Shown here piece by piece: positions 1,995 through 38,525 of a stretch of DNA of 64,000 nucleotides. The notes below the pieces were generated by a model, which searched no databases, was not told where the DNA came from, and saw only the letters and a list, made by a program, of their open reading frames with translations. The DNA comes from Acidaminococcus massiliensis (GTDB lineage: Bacteria; Bacillota; Negativicutes; Acidaminococcales; Acidaminococcaceae). The position numbers were made by a program, and so were the translations under genes. Positions within the stretch are counted from its first letter, which is position 1, and each line of letters opens with the position of its first letter. The stretch spans positions 448,318 through 512,317 of the forward strand of contig NZ_LT608315.1 in assembly GCF_900095825.1 (NCBI RefSeq). The letters run 5' to 3'.

Positions 1995-3029
1995 ATGGAA
2001 CCTATTAAAGAACCGAAACCGCTGGTTCTCGTTTCCTCGTCTCCCCACATGCACTGTGGGCTCACCATCAGCAAGTCCATGCGGGAAGTCATCCTGGCAC
2101 TGGTACCTGCTGTCCTGGCTTCTGTCTATTATTTCCGCGTTGACGCCGTACGGGTCATCGTGTGCTGCGTGCTTTCTGCTCTTATCTTTGAAAAACTGGC
2201 CAACAAGGTCATGGGCGTGAAGAAGGACACCATCAAAGATGGTTCCGCTGCTCTGACTGGTCTCCTGCTGGCCCTGTGCCTGCCGGCCTCCCTGCCTAGC
2301 TACATGGCTGTCCTGGGTGGCATGTTCGCCGTAGTGATCGGCAAGGCCATCTTCGGCGGCCTGGGCAAGAACATCTTCAACCCGGCCCACATCGGCCGTG
2401 CCATCCTGCTGGCTTCTTTCCCCCAGCAGATGACCACCTGGGTCATCCCCGCTACCAAGGCGGCTGCCGTCACGGCTGCCACTGCCGGGGCTGATGCCAC
2501 CACCGCTGCCACCCCTCTGGCTGTGATGCGGATGACGGAAAAAGTATGGCAGGCCGGCGGTGCTGCCGCTTCCCAGCTGCCTCCCCTGTCCGATCTCTTC
2601 ATCGGCAACATTGGCGGTTCCCTGGGTGAAACCTGCGTACCGGCCCTCGTCCTGGGCGGCCTGTACCTGATCTGGAAAAAACTCATCGACTGGCGCATCC
2701 CTGTGTTCTACCTGGCCACCGTGGCCGTGATCACTGGGATCTATGGTGCTGTCATGGGTTATCCCTCCACCTTTCCCCTGTACCATCTGTTTGCCGGCGG
2801 CCTGATGATTGGTGCCTTCTTCATGGCAACGGACTGGGTCACCTCCCCCATCACCAAAAAAGGCAAGATCATTTACGCCATCGGGTTGGGTCTCCTGACT
2901 TCCCTGATCCGTCTGCGGGGCAGCTACACGGAAGGCGTCTGCTATTCCATCCTGATGATGAACATGGTCACTCCTATGATTGACCGGTTCGTACGGAATG
3001 TATCCTTCGGAGGAGGTCAGAAGAAATGA
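1995..3029 (+). CDS. rnfD: Rnf complex subunit D, membrane flavoprotein
   Basis: RnfD is a multi-pass membrane subunit that carries covalently bound FMN and sits in the electron path across the membrane. The 344-residue protein has several hydrophobic helices, the NqrB/RnfD signature region around KDGSAALTG (residues 81-89) and NPAHIGRA (129-136), and a DATTAATPLA stretch in which Thr173 is the likely flavinylation site (family motif S/T-x-A-T). ApbE, the flavin transferase required for this, is encoded in the same gene run. The stop overlaps the rnfG start by four bases (ATGA), which suggests translational coupling. Confidence 0.95.
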   Translation: MEPIKEPKPLVLVSSSPHMHCGLTISKSMREVILALVPAVLASVYYFRVDAVRVIVCCVLSALIFEKLANKVMGVKKDTIKDGSAALTGLLLALCLPASLPSYMAVLGGMFAVVIGKAIFGGLGKNIFNPAHIGRAILLASFPQQMTTWVIPATKAAAVTAATAGADATTAATPLAVMRMTEKVWQAGGAAASQLPPLSDLFIGNIGGSLGETCVPALVLGGLYLIWKKLIDWRIPVFYLATVAVITGIYGAVMGYPSTFPLYHLFAGGLMIGAFFMATDWVTSPITKKGKIIYAIGLGLLTSLIRLRGSYTEGVCYSILMMNMVTPMIDRFVRNVSFGGGQKK

Positions 3030-3595
3030 GCAACCTCTTTGTTAAATACACCGGCATCCTGGCCGTCATCTGCGGCGTCAGCGTAGGTCTCGTCGCTGCT
3101 GCCAATGAAGGGACCAAGGATACCATCGCCAAGAAACACGAAGCCGATACCCGGGCCGCCTACAAAGTGGTGCTGCCGGAACTGGGCGATCTGAAGAAGC
3201 TGCCGGCTCCCGGCGGGCTGATCACCGATGTGCAGCAGTCTTCCAAGAACGGCAAGCCCAACGGCTACATCTACACCGTGACCCCCAGCGGCTACGGCGG
3301 AAAAGTGACCCTGATGGTGGGCATCTCCAAGGACGGGGACAAGATCACCGGGATCAAGGTCATGAACCACAGCGAAACCCCTGGCCTGGGTGCCAAGAGT
3401 ACGGAACCCGCCTGGCAGGCCCAATTCAAAGGCAAACCTCTGAAAGATGCTCTGGTAGTTACCAAACAGGAAGCTGGCAAGCCCAATGAGATCAAAGCCA
3501 TCACTGCGGCAACCATCACTTCCAGAGCCGTCGTCACCGGCGTCAACGCCGCCCGTGAGGACTACATGAAGAATCATGCCAATGGAAAGGACTGA
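3026..3595 (+). CDS. rnfG: Rnf complex subunit G, covalent-FMN subunit
   Basis: RnfG is a single-helix subunit whose extracytoplasmic FMN-binding domain receives FMN on a threonine from ApbE. The 189-residue protein has an N-terminal membrane segment (about residues 7-26), then the FMN-bind domain with the conserved MNHSETPGLGAK (113-124). The acceptor motif is TAATITS, where Thr163 is the expected FMN-linked residue. It overlaps rnfD by four bases and is followed six bases later by rnfE. Length and motifs match the family. Confidence 0.95.
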   Translation: MSNLFVKYTGILAVICGVSVGLVAAANEGTKDTIAKKHEADTRAAYKVVLPELGDLKKLPAPGGLITDVQQSSKNGKPNGYIYTVTPSGYGGKVTLMVGISKDGDKITGIKVMNHSETPGLGAKSTEPAWQAQFKGKPLKDALVVTKQEAGKPNEIKAITAATITSRAVVTGVNAAREDYMKNHANGKD

Positions 3596-3600
3596 TCGAG

Positions 3601-4197
3601 ATGCTGCATGAATTGACCAAAGGTATCATCAAGGAAAACCCGTTGTTCGTCCAGCTGCTGGGTGTATGTCCGTCGCTGGCAACGAGTACTTCCATGACCA
3701 ACGCAATCGGTATGGGCTGTGCCTTTACCTTCGTTCTGTTTTTCACCAACATGATCATTGCTGCCATCCGGAAACTGATCCCGGATCAGATCCACATTCC
3801 CTGCTACATCGTGGTTATCGCTTCTGTGGTAACTGTGCTGGAAATGCTGATGAACGCTTTCGTACCGGCGCTGTATGCAGCCCTGGGCGTATTCGTCCCT
3901 CTGATCGTGGTTAACTGTATCGTATTGGGCCGTGCAGAAGCCTTCGCCTGCGACCACGGGATCATCGATTCCGCCCTGGACGCCATCGGCATGGGCATCG
4001 GCTATTCCTTCGCCCTGTGCTGCATCGCCTTCTTCCGGGAACTGGTCGGGGCCGGCAAACTCTTTGACCACGCCGTCCTGCCCGCTTCCTACCAGCCGGT
4101 GCTGATCTTCATCCTGCCGGCCGGAGCCTTCCTGACCATGGGCTTTGTATTCGCCGCGGTCAACTACTTCAAAGAAAGAGGTGCTCACAATGCATAG
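3601..4197 (+). CDS. rnfE: Rnf complex subunit E, membrane subunit
   Basis: RnfE is an integral membrane subunit homologous to NqrD and to RnfA. The 198-residue protein is almost entirely hydrophobic with about six helices and the family features ENPLFVQLLGVCPSLA near the N-terminus and VNCIVLGRAEAFA in the middle. The conserved half-membrane cysteines (CPSLA and NCIVLGR) are the ones proposed in the family to hold an iron centre with RnfA. The gene sits between rnfG and rnfA and overlaps the proposed rnfA start by eight bases. Confidence 0.95.
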   Translation: MLHELTKGIIKENPLFVQLLGVCPSLATSTSMTNAIGMGCAFTFVLFFTNMIIAAIRKLIPDQIHIPCYIVVIASVVTVLEMLMNAFVPALYAALGVFVPLIVVNCIVLGRAEAFACDHGIIDSALDAIGMGIGYSFALCCIAFFRELVGAGKLFDHAVLPASYQPVLIFILPAGAFLTMGFVFAAVNYFKERGAHNA

Positions 4198-4765
4198 TAC
4201 TTTCGGCATTCTCTTTAGCTCCATCTTCGTTTCCAACATCATCCTGTCCCGGTTCCTGGGGATGTGCTCCTTCCTGGGGGTTTCCAAGAACTTCAAGAAC
4301 TCCGTGGGCATGAGCGCCGCCGTATCCTTCGTTATGCTGCTGGCCTCCATGCTGTCCTACGCCTGCTACCATCTGCTCCTGGTTCCCTACCATCTGGAAT
4401 ACCTGAAGACCCTGGTCTTCATCCTGGCCATCGCCACCCTGGTACAGCTGGTTGAAATGTTCATGAAAAAGGCCATGCCTTCCCTGCACAAGGCCATGGG
4501 TATTTACCTGCCTCTGATCACCACCAACTGCGCCATCCTGGGTATCGCTCTGATCAACGTGGAAAGCAATTACAACTTCATCGATTCCTGCGTGAACTCC
4601 ATCGGTACGTCCATCGGCTACACCATGGCTATCCTGCTGTTCTCCTGCATCCGTGAACGTCTGGATGAAAAGGCCCTGCCCAAATGCCTCCAGAACCTTC
4701 CCATTGCTTTGATCACTGCCAGCTGCATGTCCATTTCCATGATGGGGATGAGCGGCATCCATTGA
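4190..4765 (+). CDS. rnfA: Rnf complex subunit A, membrane subunit
   Basis: RnfA is the NqrE-like integral membrane partner of RnfE. I start it at 4190 (MHSTFGILFSSIFVSN), not at the upstream in-frame ATG at 4145. AGAGGTG lies just before 4190, and family members start close to the first membrane segment. The 191-residue protein has six hydrophobic helices and the paired cysteine motifs RFLGMCSFLG and TTNCAILGIAL. The eight-base overlap with rnfE indicates coupled translation. The assignment is firm from both motifs and gene order. Confidence 0.95.
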   Translation: MHSTFGILFSSIFVSNIILSRFLGMCSFLGVSKNFKNSVGMSAAVSFVMLLASMLSYACYHLLLVPYHLEYLKTLVFILAIATLVQLVEMFMKKAMPSLHKAMGIYLPLITTNCAILGIALINVESNYNFIDSCVNSIGTSIGYTMAILLFSCIRERLDEKALPKCLQNLPIALITASCMSISMMGMSGIH

Positions 4766-10596: not shown

Positions 10597-10690
10597 GGGG
10601 TGTTGCGCAAAACGTGCAACACCCCGGTCGCGGGCCGCGAGCCGCGGCCCCAAAAAGAAGGAGCTGTTGCCCACGCAACAGCTCCTTCTT
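10597..10690. terminator. Tandem terminator hairpins between convergent genes, with a GC-rich palindrome between them
   Basis: Three hairpins in a row: a 10-bp stem (10597-10606 with 10616-10625), a GC-only 8-bp palindrome (10632-10639 with 10643-10650), and a 16-bp perfect stem with a four-base loop (10655-10670 with 10675-10690). Reading the minus strand, the first and last are followed by T-rich tracts, so they best serve the minus-strand genes. The first directly follows the radical SAM stop codon and could also end the + transcript. Confidence 0.75.
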
Positions 10691-10692
10691 CT

Positions 10693-11061
10693 TTATCTCC
10701 ACCACCCTGCTTTCTGCTGCATGGGCGGACGTTTTTTGTTCTGATTCTGCTGACGCTGTCTCCGTTCTTCTTCTTTTCTTCTCCGGATCTCTGCTTCCCG
10801 TCTCTTCCGGGCTTCCGCTTCCCGTTTCTTCTGGATTTCCTTCTGGCGTTTTTCAAAAGCCTTCTGGTTCCCATTGTCCCGCCGTTCCATCCGAGGTCCT
10901 TGGTTGTTCCAGGGAGTGGCCGCTTCGGCTTTGCTGCTCACCATGGCGCTGGCACCCAGCACCAGGGTCACGCCCAGCAGGAAGATGCTGGTCACTTTTT
11001 TGAAACGGTCCTTCAGGGTTTCATAAGGTTTGGCCATTGCATAGGTCACGATCTTTGTCAT
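10693..11061 (-). CDS. Small membrane-anchored, highly charged protein of unknown function
   Basis: A 122-residue protein. Residues about 22-43 form one hydrophobic segment ending in AEA, which could be a signal peptide or an anchor. The rest is a very charged helix rich in Lys, Arg, Glu and Gln (runs such as KKREAEARKRREAE), then a basic Gln/Asn tail. I recognise no domain. It lies 15 bases after the PepSY-like gene, in the same direction, and so is very likely in that operon and under the same response regulator. An envelope-stress accessory role is a guess. Confidence 0.7.
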   Translation of the reverse strand: MTKIVTYAMAKPYETLKDRFKKVTSIFLLGVTLVLGASAMVSSKAEAATPWNNQGPRMERRDNGNQKAFEKRQKEIQKKREAEARKRREAEIRRRKEEERRQRQQNQNKKRPPMQQKAGWWR

Positions 11062-20217: not shown

Positions 20218-20274
20218 ATTATAGGGATAGAATGTGCAGATGGTGGGAAGAGAATATGAAGAAAATATGAAGGG
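20218..20274 (-). promoter_or_regulatory. Promoter with tandem TATGAAG box (second two-component system)
   Basis: Minus-strand -10 TATAAT (20223-20218) has no recognisable -35. Two adjacent 11-bp repeats, AATATGAAGAA (20253-20263) and AATATGAAGGG (20264-20274, plus-strand reading), lie upstream. From the -10 edge to the TATGAAG core is 32 bases, exactly as at 24110-24166. Confidence 0.6.
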
Positions 20275-20297
20275 GCTGCTGCTTATGCAACAGCTCC
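20272..20297 (-). terminator. Terminator of the sensor kinase gene
   Basis: An imperfect 11-bp stem with TTAT loop belonging to the CTGTTGC/GCAACAG hairpin type seen repeatedly in this window. It overlaps the tandem box of the next promoter by a few bases. Confidence 0.6.
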
Positions 20298-20298
20298 T

Positions 20299-21453
20299 CT
20301 ACAATTCCACCACAAACTCCGCCCCGCCCTCTTTCCGGTTCCGGGCGGTGATGGTCCCGCCCTGGGCTTCCACGAAGCTTTTGGCCAGAGAGAGCCCGAT
20401 ACCGCTGCCTCCGGAAGCCCGGTTCCGGGATTTGTCTCCCCGGTAGAACTGTTCAAAGATATGGTCCAGGTCTTCCGGCGCGATGCCCGGCCCTTCATCG
20501 GCAATGATCAGGCGCACCCGCTTTCCGACCGGTTCCGTCTGCAGCAGGATGGCCGTCCCGGGATGGGTGTACCGGATGGCATTGGTGATCAAATTGTAGA
20601 GGATCTGGTTCACCCGGTCCGGGTCCAGCTGCCGCACCGGAAGAGAAGGTGCCATATTTTTGACGAAATGGAGCCTCTTTTCTTCCAGCAGCGGTTCCAG
20701 CAGCTCCGCCGCCCGTTCTGCCTTTTCTCCCAAATCCACCGGCTGGAGATGGAGTTCCAATTGATGCACCTGGGCCAGGGAAAGATCCCGGAGATCCCCC
20801 ACCAGCCGAGTCAGCCGCATGACTTCTTCCTGCATGGAAAACAATTTCTCCGGCTCCGGTTCTTCCACTCCGTCCAGCATGCTTTCCAGATGCCCCTGGA
20901 GCACTGCCAGAGGCGTTTTCAGTTCATGGGCGATATTGGCCAAAAATTCCTGCCGGTTGCTTTCATTGGCAGCCAGCTCGGCAGACATCTGGTTGAACAC
21001 AGCCGCCAGCTGCCCCACTTCATCCTGGGTCTCCACAGGCACTTCCTGCTTCAGATGACCCTGACGGATCTTTTCAGCCGCCTGGGACAGCTGCCGCAGG
21101 GGCCGGGTGATATTCCCGGACAGGAAATAACTCACCACCAAGCCCATTCCGGCAAACAAAAAGCCGATCCACCACAGGGACTTGTGATAAGATTCCACAA
21201 AGGTCCGTTCTGCTGCCCCCAGCATCATCCGATGGTGCATGCCTCCCATGCCCATCATCCCCCGGCCCATGCCCCGGCCATACCCGCCGGCAGCCTGACC
21301 GCCCTGGCCCGCCAGGGCAGAAGGATCCTGGAGATACTGGAAGAAATGGGTTTCCATCTGCTGGCTGCAGATGTAGATCACCACCAGGGCACAGATCAGG
21401 ATCAGCAGGAAGGTGCTCACCATCATCTTATTCCGAACACTGTGAAAGCGCAT
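20299..21453 (-). CDS. Sensor histidine kinase with Met/His/Gly-rich extracytoplasmic loop
   Basis: A 384-residue kinase. Helices at about residues 12-30 and 93-112 enclose a short extracytoplasmic loop that contains a Gly/Met/His cluster (GRGMGRGMMGMGGMHHRMM, residues 59-77). Then come HAMP, the phospho-acceptor FLANIAHELKTP (His176), and HATPase motifs NLITNAIRYT, DEGPGIAP and GGSGIGLSL. The Met/His cluster suggests that it senses copper or another soft metal; this is inference. It lies two bases downstream of its response-regulator gene in one operon. Confidence 0.9.
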   Translation of the reverse strand: MRFHSVRNKMMVSTFLLILICALVVIYICSQQMETHFFQYLQDPSALAGQGGQAAGGYGRGMGRGMMGMGGMHHRMMLGAAERTFVESYHKSLWWIGFLFAGMGLVVSYFLSGNITRPLRQLSQAAEKIRQGHLKQEVPVETQDEVGQLAAVFNQMSAELAANESNRQEFLANIAHELKTPLAVLQGHLESMLDGVEEPEPEKLFSMQEEVMRLTRLVGDLRDLSLAQVHQLELHLQPVDLGEKAERAAELLEPLLEEKRLHFVKNMAPSLPVRQLDPDRVNQILYNLITNAIRYTHPGTAILLQTEPVGKRVRLIIADEGPGIAPEDLDHIFEQFYRGDKSRNRASGGSGIGLSLAKSFVEAQGGTITARNRKEGGAEFVVEL

Positions 21454-31699: not shown

Positions 31700-32800
31700 A
31701 TGGATATCATTGAAGAATTCAAGGAACTGGTCATGATCGATTCGGCTTCTGGCAAAGAAAGAGCCATTGCCGATGCCTTGACAAAGAAGCTCCGGGATCT
31801 GGGTTTTGCCGTGAAAGAAGACCGGGCTGGAGATACCTTTGGGGGCGATACAGGGAACCTGACCGCCGTCCGGGAAGGGACCCGTCCCGGTGCCATCCTG
31901 TTCTGCAGCCACATGGACCGGGTGGCCAAAGGGCTCAGCATCCATCCTCAGGAAAAAGACGGCTATCTGGTATCTGACGGCACCACCATCTTGGCAGCCG
32001 ACGATGTGAGCGGCATCTGCGCCATCCTGGATGGGGTACGGCGGGCCATCGCTTCCCAAAAGCCCCTGCCCCGGCTGGAAATCGCCTTCACAGTGGGAGA
32101 GGAAGCCGGTCTTTGGGGAGGACGGGCCCTGGACCTGTCCCAATTCCAGAGCCCCTTCTGCTATGTGCTGGACAGTCCTGGCACCCTGGGCCGGCTGATC
32201 AACGGAGCTCCCGGCCTGGCCAAACTCCAAGTAGAAGTCCGGGGCAAAGCGGCCCATGCAGGGAACGAGCCGGAAAAGGGCATCAATGCGGCCCATATCC
32301 TATGTCATATCCTGGATACCCTGAAAGACGGCCGGTTGGATGAAGAGACCGTCTCCAACTTCCCCCTCCTGGGCACCGGCAACACAGCCACCAACATCGT
32401 CTGTGCCCAAGCCTGGGCCAAAGGCGAGAGCCGCAGCCGGGATCGGAAAAAGCTGGAAGCCTATATGGCCTACTTCCAATCCCATTGCCAGGAAAGTGCC
32501 CAAGGAACCGGAGCCGCCGTCACCACCCAGGCAGAAATCTCTTTCGCTCCCTTCCTGCTGGAAGAAAACGAACCGGTGATCTGCCATGCCCGCAAAGCCC
32601 TGGAAGCCATGGGGATCGAGCCCCGGATCGAACAGGGCGGCGGAGGGATGGATGCCAACATCTACAATGCCAAAGGCCTGCCCTCCTTAGGAGTGGCCAC
32701 CGGCTATACCAAAAACCACACCTTGGAAGAGAACCTAGACCTGGCCAGCTTCACCCGCAGCGGAGAACTGGTAGCAAAACTGATTGAAACCATTTCCTGA
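31700..32800 (+). CDS. M20-family metallopeptidase (PepT/aminopeptidase-like)
   Basis: A 366-residue di-zinc hydrolase of the M20 family. Ligands in order: His and Asp in CSHMDRV, bridging Asp in AADDVSG, catalytic Glu pair in VGEEAG, Asp in VLDSPG and the late His in KNHTLEEN. The dimerisation lid with KAAHAGNEPEKGINA is present. It resembles tripeptidase-like enzymes, so it likely cleaves short peptides or N-acyl amino acids in the cytoplasm. The operon with the upstream carrier suggests uptake-plus-hydrolysis. A GGAGGAG site precedes the ATG. Confidence 0.9.
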   Translation: MDIIEEFKELVMIDSASGKERAIADALTKKLRDLGFAVKEDRAGDTFGGDTGNLTAVREGTRPGAILFCSHMDRVAKGLSIHPQEKDGYLVSDGTTILAADDVSGICAILDGVRRAIASQKPLPRLEIAFTVGEEAGLWGGRALDLSQFQSPFCYVLDSPGTLGRLINGAPGLAKLQVEVRGKAAHAGNEPEKGINAAHILCHILDTLKDGRLDEETVSNFPLLGTGNTATNIVCAQAWAKGESRSRDRKKLEAYMAYFQSHCQESAQGTGAAVTTQAEISFAPFLLEENEPVICHARKALEAMGIEPRIEQGGGGMDANIYNAKGLPSLGVATGYTKNHTLEENLDLASFTRSGELVAKLIETIS

Positions 32801-32807
32801 ATGGACT

Positions 32808-32845
32808 AATGGGCTGTTGCATGCGCAACAGCCCATTCTTTTTCT
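32808..32845 (+). terminator. Terminator of the transporter-peptidase operon
   Basis: A perfect 13-bp stem (32808-32820 with 32825-32837), loop ATGC, followed by CTTTTTCT. It has the recurring CTGTTGC/GCAACAG core. Confidence 0.88.
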
Positions 32846-32879
32846 CTCCCCTTAGTGTAAAATAGTTCTCGGTAAAAAG

Positions 32880-32984
32880 TGAAACGAGCAGCACCGAAGA
32901 GGAAGATAATGTCAGGAAACTGCGGGATTACCTGGAACGGAATTGGGAACACCTGTTACGGATTGCAGTACTGAACTGGTGACA
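32880..32984 (+). pseudogene. Possible protein-coding remnant
   Basis: A short frame reads EEEDNVRKLRDYLERNWEHL and then LNW-stop. This looks like the end of a larger protein, perhaps an ISLre2/UPF0236-type transposase, which contain similar Tyr-Leu-x-x-Asn-Trp segments. There is no start and no further homology that I can see. Low confidence. Confidence 0.25.
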
Positions 32985-32996
32985 AGAACGGCCCCA

Positions 32997-33049
32997 AAGT
33001 CCGCCCTGTGAGGGGCGGGGGACCGTGCGGAGCACGGTGGTGGGGGCAT
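32997..33049 (+). repeat. Palindrome-rich repeat, unit A
   Basis: A 53-base unit made of adjacent small hairpins: CCGCCC with GGGCGG, then ACCGTGC-GGA-GCACGGT. The unit starts AAGTCCGCCCTG and ends GGTGGTGGGGGCAT. A second copy in the opposite orientation lies at 33197-33247. Confidence 0.8.
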
Positions 33050-33196
33050 CGGCGACAGCCGATACTTCGCAGGACCGGCCGAAAACAAGGGAGTGTCTGG
33101 CAGAAGTAGAAATATGATGACCGCAGTATCCATTGCTGGCTCTCAGGTAGATAGTTTCCATACCACCGTCAAGGTATTCGGTCCTTTCAGGACCTC

Positions 33197-33247
33197 ATGC
33201 CCCCACCACCGGGCAAGCCCGGTCCCCCGCCCCTGCAGGGCGGACTT
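33197..33247 (-). repeat. Palindrome-rich repeat, unit B (inverted copy of unit A)
   Basis: The reverse complement matches unit A over its whole length apart from loops and one stem base pair: ACCGGGC-TT-GCCCGGT replaces ACCGTGC-GGA-GCACGGT, a compensatory T-A to G-C change. Confidence 0.8.
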
Positions 33248-33740
33248 GGCCTCTGGCCTTGCTGGTATTTTGTGCGGGTATACATCGATTCTCCAGGAGC
33301 CGGGAGGGCAGGCCCAGGAGGAGTCGGCGGGATAACATCGGCAGTAGTCGCTTCACGAGTGGAGCACGCGGGCGAGGCCATCCGGCTTCCTGGTCCATAG
33401 CCGCTGCCTTTGACCGTCAGGGCAAGGCGATAGGCTGTGAGCCTCCCGCCAGGGGACGAACGGGTCTGCTCTCCCGGCGGAGAGCCTTCACGGGTGAAAG
33501 GGTATAGAAGCTTTTTGCCCTCTGGGCGGCCGGGATGGGCTTCCCACGGGAAGCCCCTACAGCGTCAGGGTCAGAGTATGGTACAGATGGCGGACCGCCT
33601 GGTGTGCGGACCCTACAATTCTGTGCTCTGCACTCTGCACTTTCGGCCCATGAATGAATAACTATACTGTGGTGAAGGTCCTCCTGAGAACTTGTTGACA
33701 CATACGTGCCGGGATCGGGAAATATAAAGAATCGGAAAAG
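33248..33740. other. Gene-free stretch rich in short palindromes
   Basis: No reading frame here looks coding. Several short inverted repeats are visible, for example GGGCTTCCC-AC-GGGAAGCCC (33537-33556) and GGCGGACCGCC (33584-33594). It may be a mosaic of dispersed repeats or decayed mobile DNA. The MATE gene promoter begins at its right end. Confidence 0.5.
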
Positions 33741-33742
33741 TA

Positions 33743-33751
33743 TGTTATAAT
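33743..33751 (+). promoter_or_regulatory. Extended -10 promoter of the MATE gene
   Basis: TG-T-TATAAT, with TATAAT at 33746-33751, is an extended -10 element without a clear -35, 43 bases before the MATE start codon. Confidence 0.5.
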
Positions 33752-33793
33752 AAAAGTTAACGACTATAAACTCTCCAAAAGGCAGGTGATTCC

Positions 33794-35134
33794 ATGGTAC
33801 ATTCCAAGACGAAAGATATGACGGCGGGCAGCATTCCCCGCCTGATCCTGGAATTTGCCCTGCCCCTCATGATCGGCAATATTTTCCAGATGCTGTACAA
33901 TACGGTGGATTCCATCGTCGTAGGGAATTTCGTAGGGACCCAAGCCCTGGCCGCCGTCAGTTCCACCACCATGATCACCAACATGTCCGTATTTTTCTTC
34001 AATGGGTTCTCCATCGGAGCTACGGTGATCATCGGCAAATATTTCGGAGCCAAAGACCACAAACTGCTCCACCGCGCCGTAGAGACCACCATGGGGGCCA
34101 CCTTTGCCCTTTGTCTGCTGTTTACCGTATTTTTCCTGGCCGGCACCGATTTCATGCTCCGCTTCATGAAGACCCCTGCCGATGTATTCGACCAGGCGGC
34201 GCTGTACCTCCGTATCTACTTTGCCGGCGTCACCGGCCTTCTCCTCTACAACATGGGCAGCGGCATCCTCCGGGCGGTGGGAGATACGAAACGGCCCCTG
34301 TACTTCCTGATCCTCACCAGCATCCTGAATATCTTCCTGGACCTGCTCTTTGTCCTGGCTTTCCATTGGGGCATTGCCGGTGTGGCCTATGCCACCATCC
34401 TGGCTCAGTTCATCTCTGCCGGGGCCACCATGGCCGTCCTCCTGCGGACCCGGGATATCTACCGTTTTTCCTTTGCAGATCTGTGCCTGGACCGGGGGCT
34501 CCTGAGCCAGATTTTCCGGGTGGGCCTGCCCACGGCCATCCAGAGCATCATCACCTCTTTTTCCAATATTTTTGTCCAGTCCTATATCAATTTCTTTGGA
34601 GCCATCGTCATGGCCGGCTGGGGCTGTTACAACAAACTGGACCAATTCATCATGCTGCCGGTCCTTTCCATGGCTATGGCTGCTACTACCTTCGTAGCAC
34701 AGAATATGGGAGCCCACAATGAAAAGCGGGCCATCGACGGAACCGTCACTTCCATCCTCATGAGCCTGGCCATTACAGGGGCCATCGCTGCCCTGCTTTT
34801 CATTTTTGCCGATACGTCCATGCGCCTATTCACGGGAGACGAACCTGTGATCAAAGCCGGCGTAGCGCTCATCCACATCAATATTTTCTTCATGCTCTTC
34901 AACTGCGTGAACCAGGTCTTGGCCGGTGCCCTGCGGGGACGGGGCGATTCCATCGGTCCTATGGTCATCATGCTGCTGTCCTTTGTCCTGATCCGCCAGA
35001 TCTACCTCTACCTCATGACCCGATTCATCAGCAACACCCCGCTTACCGTCGGTTTCGGCTACCCAGTAGGCTGGATGACCTGCTGCGTGCTAGAGGTACT
35101 GTATTTCTATCTGTTTTGGAAGCATAGGAAGTGA
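33794..35134 (+). CDS. MATE-family multidrug efflux protein
   Basis: A 446-residue carrier with 12 hydrophobic helices in two homologous halves. Typical features: LALPLMIGNIFQMLYNTVDSIVVG-like start (seen here from about residue 21), GTQALAAVSST, and the second-half PTAIQSIITSFSNI and FVAQNMGA. It probably exports cationic drugs or toxic metabolites using Na+ or H+. Single gene between a gene-free region and a strong bidirectional terminator. Start at 33794 follows GGCAGGTG. Confidence 0.92.
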   Translation: MVHSKTKDMTAGSIPRLILEFALPLMIGNIFQMLYNTVDSIVVGNFVGTQALAAVSSTTMITNMSVFFFNGFSIGATVIIGKYFGAKDHKLLHRAVETTMGATFALCLLFTVFFLAGTDFMLRFMKTPADVFDQAALYLRIYFAGVTGLLLYNMGSGILRAVGDTKRPLYFLILTSILNIFLDLLFVLAFHWGIAGVAYATILAQFISAGATMAVLLRTRDIYRFSFADLCLDRGLLSQIFRVGLPTAIQSIITSFSNIFVQSYINFFGAIVMAGWGCYNKLDQFIMLPVLSMAMAATTFVAQNMGAHNEKRAIDGTVTSILMSLAITGAIAALLFIFADTSMRLFTGDEPVIKAGVALIHINIFFMLFNCVNQVLAGALRGRGDSIGPMVIMLLSFVLIRQIYLYLMTRFISNTPLTVGFGYPVGWMTCCVLEVLYFYLFWKHRK

Positions 35135-35175
35135 AAAAAGAGGAGCTGTTGCGCACGCAGCAGCTCCTCTTTTTT
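35134..35175. terminator. Bidirectional terminator between convergent genes
   Basis: A 19-bp stem with a GCAC loop and only one G-T mismatch, flanked by A6 and T6 (35134-35152 with 35157-35175). It serves the MATE gene and the minus-strand carrier gene whose stop codon it overlaps. Confidence 0.9.
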
Positions 35176-38469: not shown

Positions 38470-38525
38470 AATAAATTTCGTACCAAAAATATTGCAAAAT
38501 CAATATTTTTGGTACGAAATTTATT
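38470..38525. repeat. Perfect 25-bp AT-rich palindrome
   Basis: Arms 38470-38494 and 38501-38525 pair without mismatch around a CAAAAT loop. It could be a terminator for the LysR gene upstream (A/T-rich, ends in TTTATT), an operator for the ATPase gene downstream, or both. Confidence 0.75.

Follow-up and report, generated by a model that had tools for sequence, protein, structure and literature searches.

Two inverted repeat units face each other in the window, by which we mean the whole 64,000-nucleotide stretch of the Acidaminococcus massiliensis genome that was analysed, and they very probably make up a single heterodimeric REP doublet similar to BIMEs and REPINs. The family to which they belong, here called REP-A, is a real, covarying and mobile-looking REP-type doublet, and its two ends carried unlike stems in every inverted pair that we counted. 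The REP-A unit is a tandem double hairpin, in which CCGCCC-loop-GGGCGG is followed by GGGACC-stem-GGTGGTGG; the first stem and the linkers (GGGACC and GGTGGTGG) are common to both arm types and the second stems are unlike. The features of the locus are collected in Table 1. Coordinates are window positions unless another locus is named; G000 is the window's own genome, and G006, G004 and G007 are congeners.

Table 1 Features of the REP-A doublet and its surroundings, in window positions.
Feature	Position	Strand	Description
Enclosing transposase-deleted ISLre2-family element	32851..33705	+	Bounded by CTTAGTGTAAAATAGTTCTC and GAGAACTTGTTGACACATAC, like the better-preserved copies
Remnant of the ISLre2 transposase C-terminal region	32876..32955	+	79% to L056 and L025
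Left arm, REP-A unit	32997..33049	+	Stem 1 CCGCCC..GGGCGG; stem 2 ACC-GTGC..GCAC-GGT; GGTGGTGG pointing inwards
Spacer between the arms	33050..33196		Contains two small hairpins (CGGCGACAGCCG; GGTCCTTTCAGGACC)
Right arm, inverted REP-A unit	33197..33247	-	Stem 2 ACC-GGGC TT GCCC-GGT
Repeated segment downstream of the doublet	33238..33545	+	Often, not always, adjoining ISLre2 sequence in the genome
REP-B, a second and different REP family	33512..33566	+	Minus strand reads CTGTAG plus hairpin, i.e. a GTAG foot

The initial annotation had described two units of about 52 bases facing each other, and the inverted-repeat search recovered them as three pairs of arms, namely 32997-33020/33224-33247 (24 nt, 79%), 33011-33028/33217-33234 (18 nt, 94%) and 33032-33049/33197-33214 (18 nt, 94%). 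Taken whole, the two ~52-bp units matched at 87% identity in a self-search of the genome (E 2.9e-9), and chance is therefore excluded for the arm pair. The doublet is neighboured by an M20 peptidase gene (31700-32800) and then a terminator-like hairpin (32808-32837), and on its other side by a MATE transporter gene (33794-35134). The middle of the spacer has diverged in the copies at L021 and L031 and partly in that at L050. An 80-aa frame at 33093-33332 had no Pfam match. A group II intron considered at 33255-33545 (start near GTGCG) was dropped, as 32780-33780 gave a single Rfam match at E up to 1, to MIR1437, and its score of 33.4 bits, where the gathering score is 168, marks a chance resemblance to the long hairpin.

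Copies of the unit were looked for in the genome and in its relatives, as the annotation had proposed, and further copies were found in which the stems are kept in variant form. The pattern of the second hairpin, GGGACCN{8,14}GGTGGTGG, gave 14, 68, 22 and 11 matches in G000, G006, G004 and G007, against 3, 8, 7 and 7 for the same pattern read backwards as a control, so that G007 alone is weak evidence (11 versus 7). Matches were absent from four of the nine species of the genus, and neither of the two matches in a fifth, G008, forms a stem. The unit is also present in other Negativicutes, gut Clostridia and Alphaproteobacteria. A slightly wider pattern was matched in 25 of 300 genomes of the class Negativicutes; two uncultured Clostridia held 59 and 60 matches where the control gave 0, and a scan of named genomes returned at least 82 matches at no fewer than 80 loci, at least 26 of them with a stem of three pairs or more. 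About 19 of these listed matches with a stem also have the first hairpin (by eye), and the hosts among the matches listed with both hairpins include Sphingomonas, Caulobacter, Phenylobacterium, Selenomonadaceae and Clostridia. In build the unit is not entirely uniform. An optional extra hairpin module of 31-50 bp (TAAGC..GCTTATGCCGTAGCT) lies between the two hairpins of a unit at L019, L042, L028, L054 and L278 and in some other G006 and G007 units, and the doublet arms at the L262 sites of G006 (C1:218061-226472) extend outwards into more hairpins with conserved linkers (GCAGC..GCTGC, then AAGGAA..TTCC in some).

The proposal that covariation reflects selection for the hairpin itself was upheld by this larger set of units. 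In the genus, 145 units were picked by the first hairpin and the linkers only, blind to the second stem; their second stems comprise 580 inner pairs, of which 569 were standard (519 Watson-Crick and 50 G-U) and 11 were unpaired. Covariation was counted on an equal-length alignment of 44 distinct units, two MAFFT alignments with a misplaced first stem having been left out. The two-stem structure paired 98.5% of the cells, a value that none of 500 shuffles reached, and its covariation score lay above all 500. Four pairs had changed on both sides against 1.0 in the shuffles (0/500 reached four), the observed number of further pair types was reached by 9 of 500 shuffles, and structures slid along the alignment gave far lower covariation scores. 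Kinship among units can inflate such a shuffle test, although according to the tool itself this seldom affects the number of pairs changed on both sides. Folded singly, units exceeded shuffles in stability by a small margin only (z -1.84, -0.46 and -1.73), so that the case for the hairpins is made by covariation across copies and not by folding energy. The 266-nt stretch that holds both arms folds into one long imperfect hairpin at -83.8 kcal/mol, against -55.0 kcal/mol with local pairs only, and this makes separate folding of the arms less likely.

The second stem reads GTGC/GCAC in the left arm and GGGC/GCCC in the right. This had been noted as a compensatory change of one stem pair; the change is present, but it is not an isolated event. 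For the most part it reflects a constant difference between the arm types, because inverted neighbours had different second stems in 62 of 62 pairs, and because the six further pairs listed from the genomes G288, G216 and G222, two of which share a unit, all differ as well. To obtain the 62 pairs, 180 units whose first stem was recognised were taken from six genomes, and neighbours less than 450 bp apart were paired; the pairs comprise 121 distinct units, three being counted in two pairs, and a few of them join neighbouring elements. Another 18 pairs of neighbours lay 450-4000 bp apart, a distance at which an autonomous version carrying a gene between its arms might exist, and G066 and G072 had no inverted neighbours within 450 bp. 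Merging one-letter variants of the stems still left 0/62 inverted pairs alike, and same-strand neighbours shared a stem type in 7 of 11 pairs. When stem types were permuted within G006, 13.9 of 41 inverted pairs were expected to be alike, none was seen, and none of 20,000 permutations was as low. The expected numbers of alike pairs were 2.6 of 8 in G004 (P 0.02) and 3.2 of 7 in G062 (P 0.04); G063 (1.7 of 4, P 0.23) and G000 (0.7 of 2, P 0.67) were not significant alone. The 20 of 200 units left out for want of a recognised first stem include some false matches in genes and some real arms (the right arm of a copy on contig C3 and arms in some G006, G062 and G063 pairs), and the inverted partners of these real arms are, by eye, also unlike.

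Doublets fall into two classes. In the commoner class GGTGGTGG points outwards, and the stems are mostly GTTGCGC with AGCC in G006 and ATGC with GCGC in Clostridia; in the class of the window's doublet GGTGGTGG points inwards and the distance from unit to unit is 182-195 bp. In the two Clostridia, ATGC-stem arms adjoin one end of the spacer four times and the other end five times (by eye, in 9 of the 12 doublets listed, three with interrupted arms being left out). Stem types swap sides relative to the spacer, yet they were never equal within a pair. Perfect identity from arm to arm has a median of 15 nt (11-29) over the 62 pairs, compared with 31 nt (15-59) between arms of the same type from different loci. 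The unlike arms could have been inherited from one founder element per genome instead of being kept by selection. Alike arms might also have been lost through poor assembly, since most G006, G062 and G063 contigs are drafts; in G004 (6 contigs), though, 8/8 pairs are also unlike, and so are 2/2 counted pairs in G000.

The doublet of the window is enclosed by what is left of an insertion sequence. The ends of the enclosing element are those of L056 and L058 and thus the terminal inverted repeats of the ISLre2 family, and comparison with L056 indicates that ~1 kb of the transposase gene is missing ahead of the remnant. The L056 transposase scores 294.5 bits on NF033529 (cut-off 200); the tail of its gene is replaced, and the L058 gene has an internal gap and a neighbouring IS110. 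Nine-bp target duplications flank the better-preserved copies L056 and L058. The enclosing element resembles IS-derived MITEs in keeping ISLre2-type ends while most of the transposase gene is lost, and differs from them in having no target-site duplication at the window copy, where the sequence next to 32851 is unlike that next to 33705. Twelve doublets of the window's class were found (that of the window, three more in G000 and eight in G006), of which ten have the right-hand flank in common and seven the left-hand flank. Hitchhiking on ISLre2 probably multiplied the class, as most of its doublets share the flanks of the element. It is not the whole story, because 2 of the 12 share no flank: for two G006 doublets, both at L269, similarity to the window is confined to the stretch from 32993-32996 to 33258-33263, and L269 holds no ISLre2 sequence, so the doublet also exists without it. 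Three loci, L022, L058 and L025/L057, lack the doublet between the short direct repeats GGGCGG, CGGTCCC and GGnCGG (by eye). This looks like deletion across the hairpins, although L025/L057 may instead be an original empty site. At L020:2891-3130 (G000:C4 about 2026400) a CRISPR array ends in a fusion with a copy of the window's doublet, the junction lying at common GCCCCC letters; the left arm of this copy is mostly replaced by CRISPR repeat sequence (by eye).

The further copies and the kept stems make REP-type, non-autonomous mobile DNA, one of the readings initially offered, the best one, and the positions of the units can be compared between species. In a 12.7-kb stretch of G006, four doublets coincide with the four main alignment gaps against G007 and against G000. 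The matching gaps of G007 and G000 are 127-344 bp shorter, and at the corresponding sites these sister species carry other filler sequence. A scan with up to two mismatches found no unit at any of the four gaps in G000 and none at three of the four in G007, the fourth having a lone ATGC-type unit with one mismatch; the other unit matches in those G007 and G000 stretches lie inside a gene common to G006. No target duplication could be read for the doublets, the junctions being too diverged. The gene calls are so rough that they overlooked the actual neighbours of the window copy; by these calls, 9 of 112 units overlap genes, and between genes of the same direction 34 units lie on the strand of the genes and 37 on the opposite strand.

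These strand counts bear on the possibility of a transcribed RNA element (a terminator, mRNA stabiliser or attenuator) whose hairpins are selected on one strand. Such an element would account for the stem covariation, and some units do lie near the 3' ends of genes or near terminator-like hairpins (by eye). A preference for one strand is nevertheless absent, no Rfam family reached its gathering score in 32780-33780, and the pattern goes unmatched in several species of the genus, as described above. The folded RNA named in the initial annotation is therefore disfavoured, and we think it improbable. There is equally little to recommend the view of the doublet as a passive 3' non-coding part of the ISLre2-family element, lacking mobility of its own. 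Several doublets of the window's class are surrounded by ISLre2 ends and most share the right-hand, ISLre2-side flank, but the search for doublets of the class without ISLre2 flanks turned up the two at L269, and other genomes and groups contain solo units as well as doublets of the commoner class. An origin by chance or as an assembly artefact is scarcely credible: folding of single arms is not strongly above shuffles, but copy numbers are far above the backwards control in several genomes and the stems covary.

A strict REPIN, mobilised by a Y1 transposase from its own genome that recognises the REP-A hairpins, would agree with the REP-like, intergenic nature of the doublets and with the presence of one RAYT-like gene in the genome. 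The single Y1 match in G000 is a 155-aa protein on contig C3, which scores 29.5 bits on PF01797 (cut-off 23) and 62.8 bits on NF047646, under the cut-off of 80. However, the flanks of its gene hold copies of REP-B, with CTGTAG beside the hairpin on the other strand, and not of REP-A. No REP-A unit was found in 27 stretches around Y1 transposase genes, even with two mismatches (about 1.5 kb per side, less at contig ends, several overlapping). The genome richest in units, G006, yields no Y1 match, six Y1 matches occur in G002, where the pattern finds no unit, and the REP-A unit itself is without a GTAG foot. The linked RAYT transposase that was to be looked for thus fits the neighbouring REP-B and not the doublet itself, and we consider mobilisation of REP-A by such an enzyme unlikely.

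For the heterodimeric doublet that we favour, we propose the following mechanism. The doublets would spread as non-autonomous DNA, their hairpins forming in single-stranded DNA and being recognised by an enzyme encoded away from them. The unlike stems may serve to keep perfect pairing from arm to arm short (median 15 versus 31 nt), and a doublet with such short pairing would be spared hairpin-directed cleavage or deletion. More speculatively, and with rather low odds in our estimation, REP-A could represent widespread mobile doublets with obligately different ends, in which an enzyme acting on single-stranded DNA reads the linkers GGGACC and GGTGGTGG, and the unlike second stems mark the left and the right end.

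As a short palindrome present in many, mostly extragenic copies, the REP-A unit is a REP in the broad sense, and the inverted pairing of unlike REP motifs is that of a BIME. Enterobacterial BIMEs are mosaics of inverted, unlike REP motifs (Y with Z1/Z2) and are targets for insertion sequences; they are bound by IHF, gyrase or DNA polymerase I. REP-A resembles them as a mosaic of inverted motifs and as such a target, and differs in sequence and foot. REPINs are REP doublets that form hairpins in extragenic space, in which compensatory changes are common, and the doublet has been proposed as the replicating unit (Bertels and Rainey 2011, PMC3116915). REP-A is alike in being an inverted REP doublet with a spacer in extragenic space; however, the REPINs presented there have the same 16-mer at both ends and linked RAYT genes, whereas the ends of REP-A were unlike in every counted pair (0/62 alike) and no linked RAYT gene was found, neither in the 27 Y1 stretches nor in G006. 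For REPs tagged by GTAG or CGTC, head-head and tail-tail dimers have been described, and many families prefer heterodimers with unlike stems or loops, for which there was "no obvious explanation" and protection from hairpin removal (SbcCD) was the suggested reason (Di Nocera et al. 2013, PMC3733652). The dimers of REP-A likewise have unlike stems, but its unit is a tandem double hairpin with neither foot. The consensus ATCCGCCC..GGGCGGGGGACC-stem-GGTGGTGGG lacks the GTAG foot that REP-B next door has, and it does not follow the published description of CGTC REPs, which have a CGTC (TGTC, CCTC) foot, an 8-9 bp stem and a short tail, mostly CCA.

Heterodimeric REP pairs are therefore known already from the account of Di Nocera and colleagues (PMC3733652), the main text of which mentions neither Firmicutes nor Acidaminococcus. 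In relation to that account, what is added here is the strict rule, the tandem double-hairpin unit without a GTAG or CGTC foot, and the hosts. The open-licence literature yielded no paper on repetitive extragenic palindromes in Acidaminococcus or Negativicutes or on RAYT/REP sequences in Firmicutes, and, among the papers listed, nothing on the REP-A family. The prevalence of REP heterodimers was called unexplained in 2013 (PMC3733652), and REP-A offers a clean case: the rule holds in several genera and has a measurable consequence, in that perfect arm pairing is about halved. Because the rule is strict and pairing is about halved, REP-A is a good system for testing whether alike pairs are removed by hairpin-cleaving or deletion pathways. 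Negativicutes and gut Clostridia join the hosts of REP-like doublets, and one such doublet is now tied to an ISLre2-family carrier.

Several other repeats were observed alongside. The RAYT-like gene on C3 occupies L063:1282-1749, with REP-B repeats at 972-1045, 1744-1817 and 1866-1939, a layout like that of a REP-associated transposase locus. IS110-type elements are known to occur in REPs, and the CCCCTACAGCG foot of REP-B is, by eye, the apparent insertion site of an IS110-family element (NF033542, 213 bits in L058; L022 about 3027-4553 and L058:1237-2637). Within the window, a terminator-like hairpin, GAGCTGTTGC..GCAACAGCTC and variants, is present in four copies (10652-10693, 20264-20305, 32802-32843 and 35134-35175), with similar matches elsewhere in the genome, and an AT-rich, perfect 25-nt inverted repeat with a 6-nt loop lies at 38470-38525.
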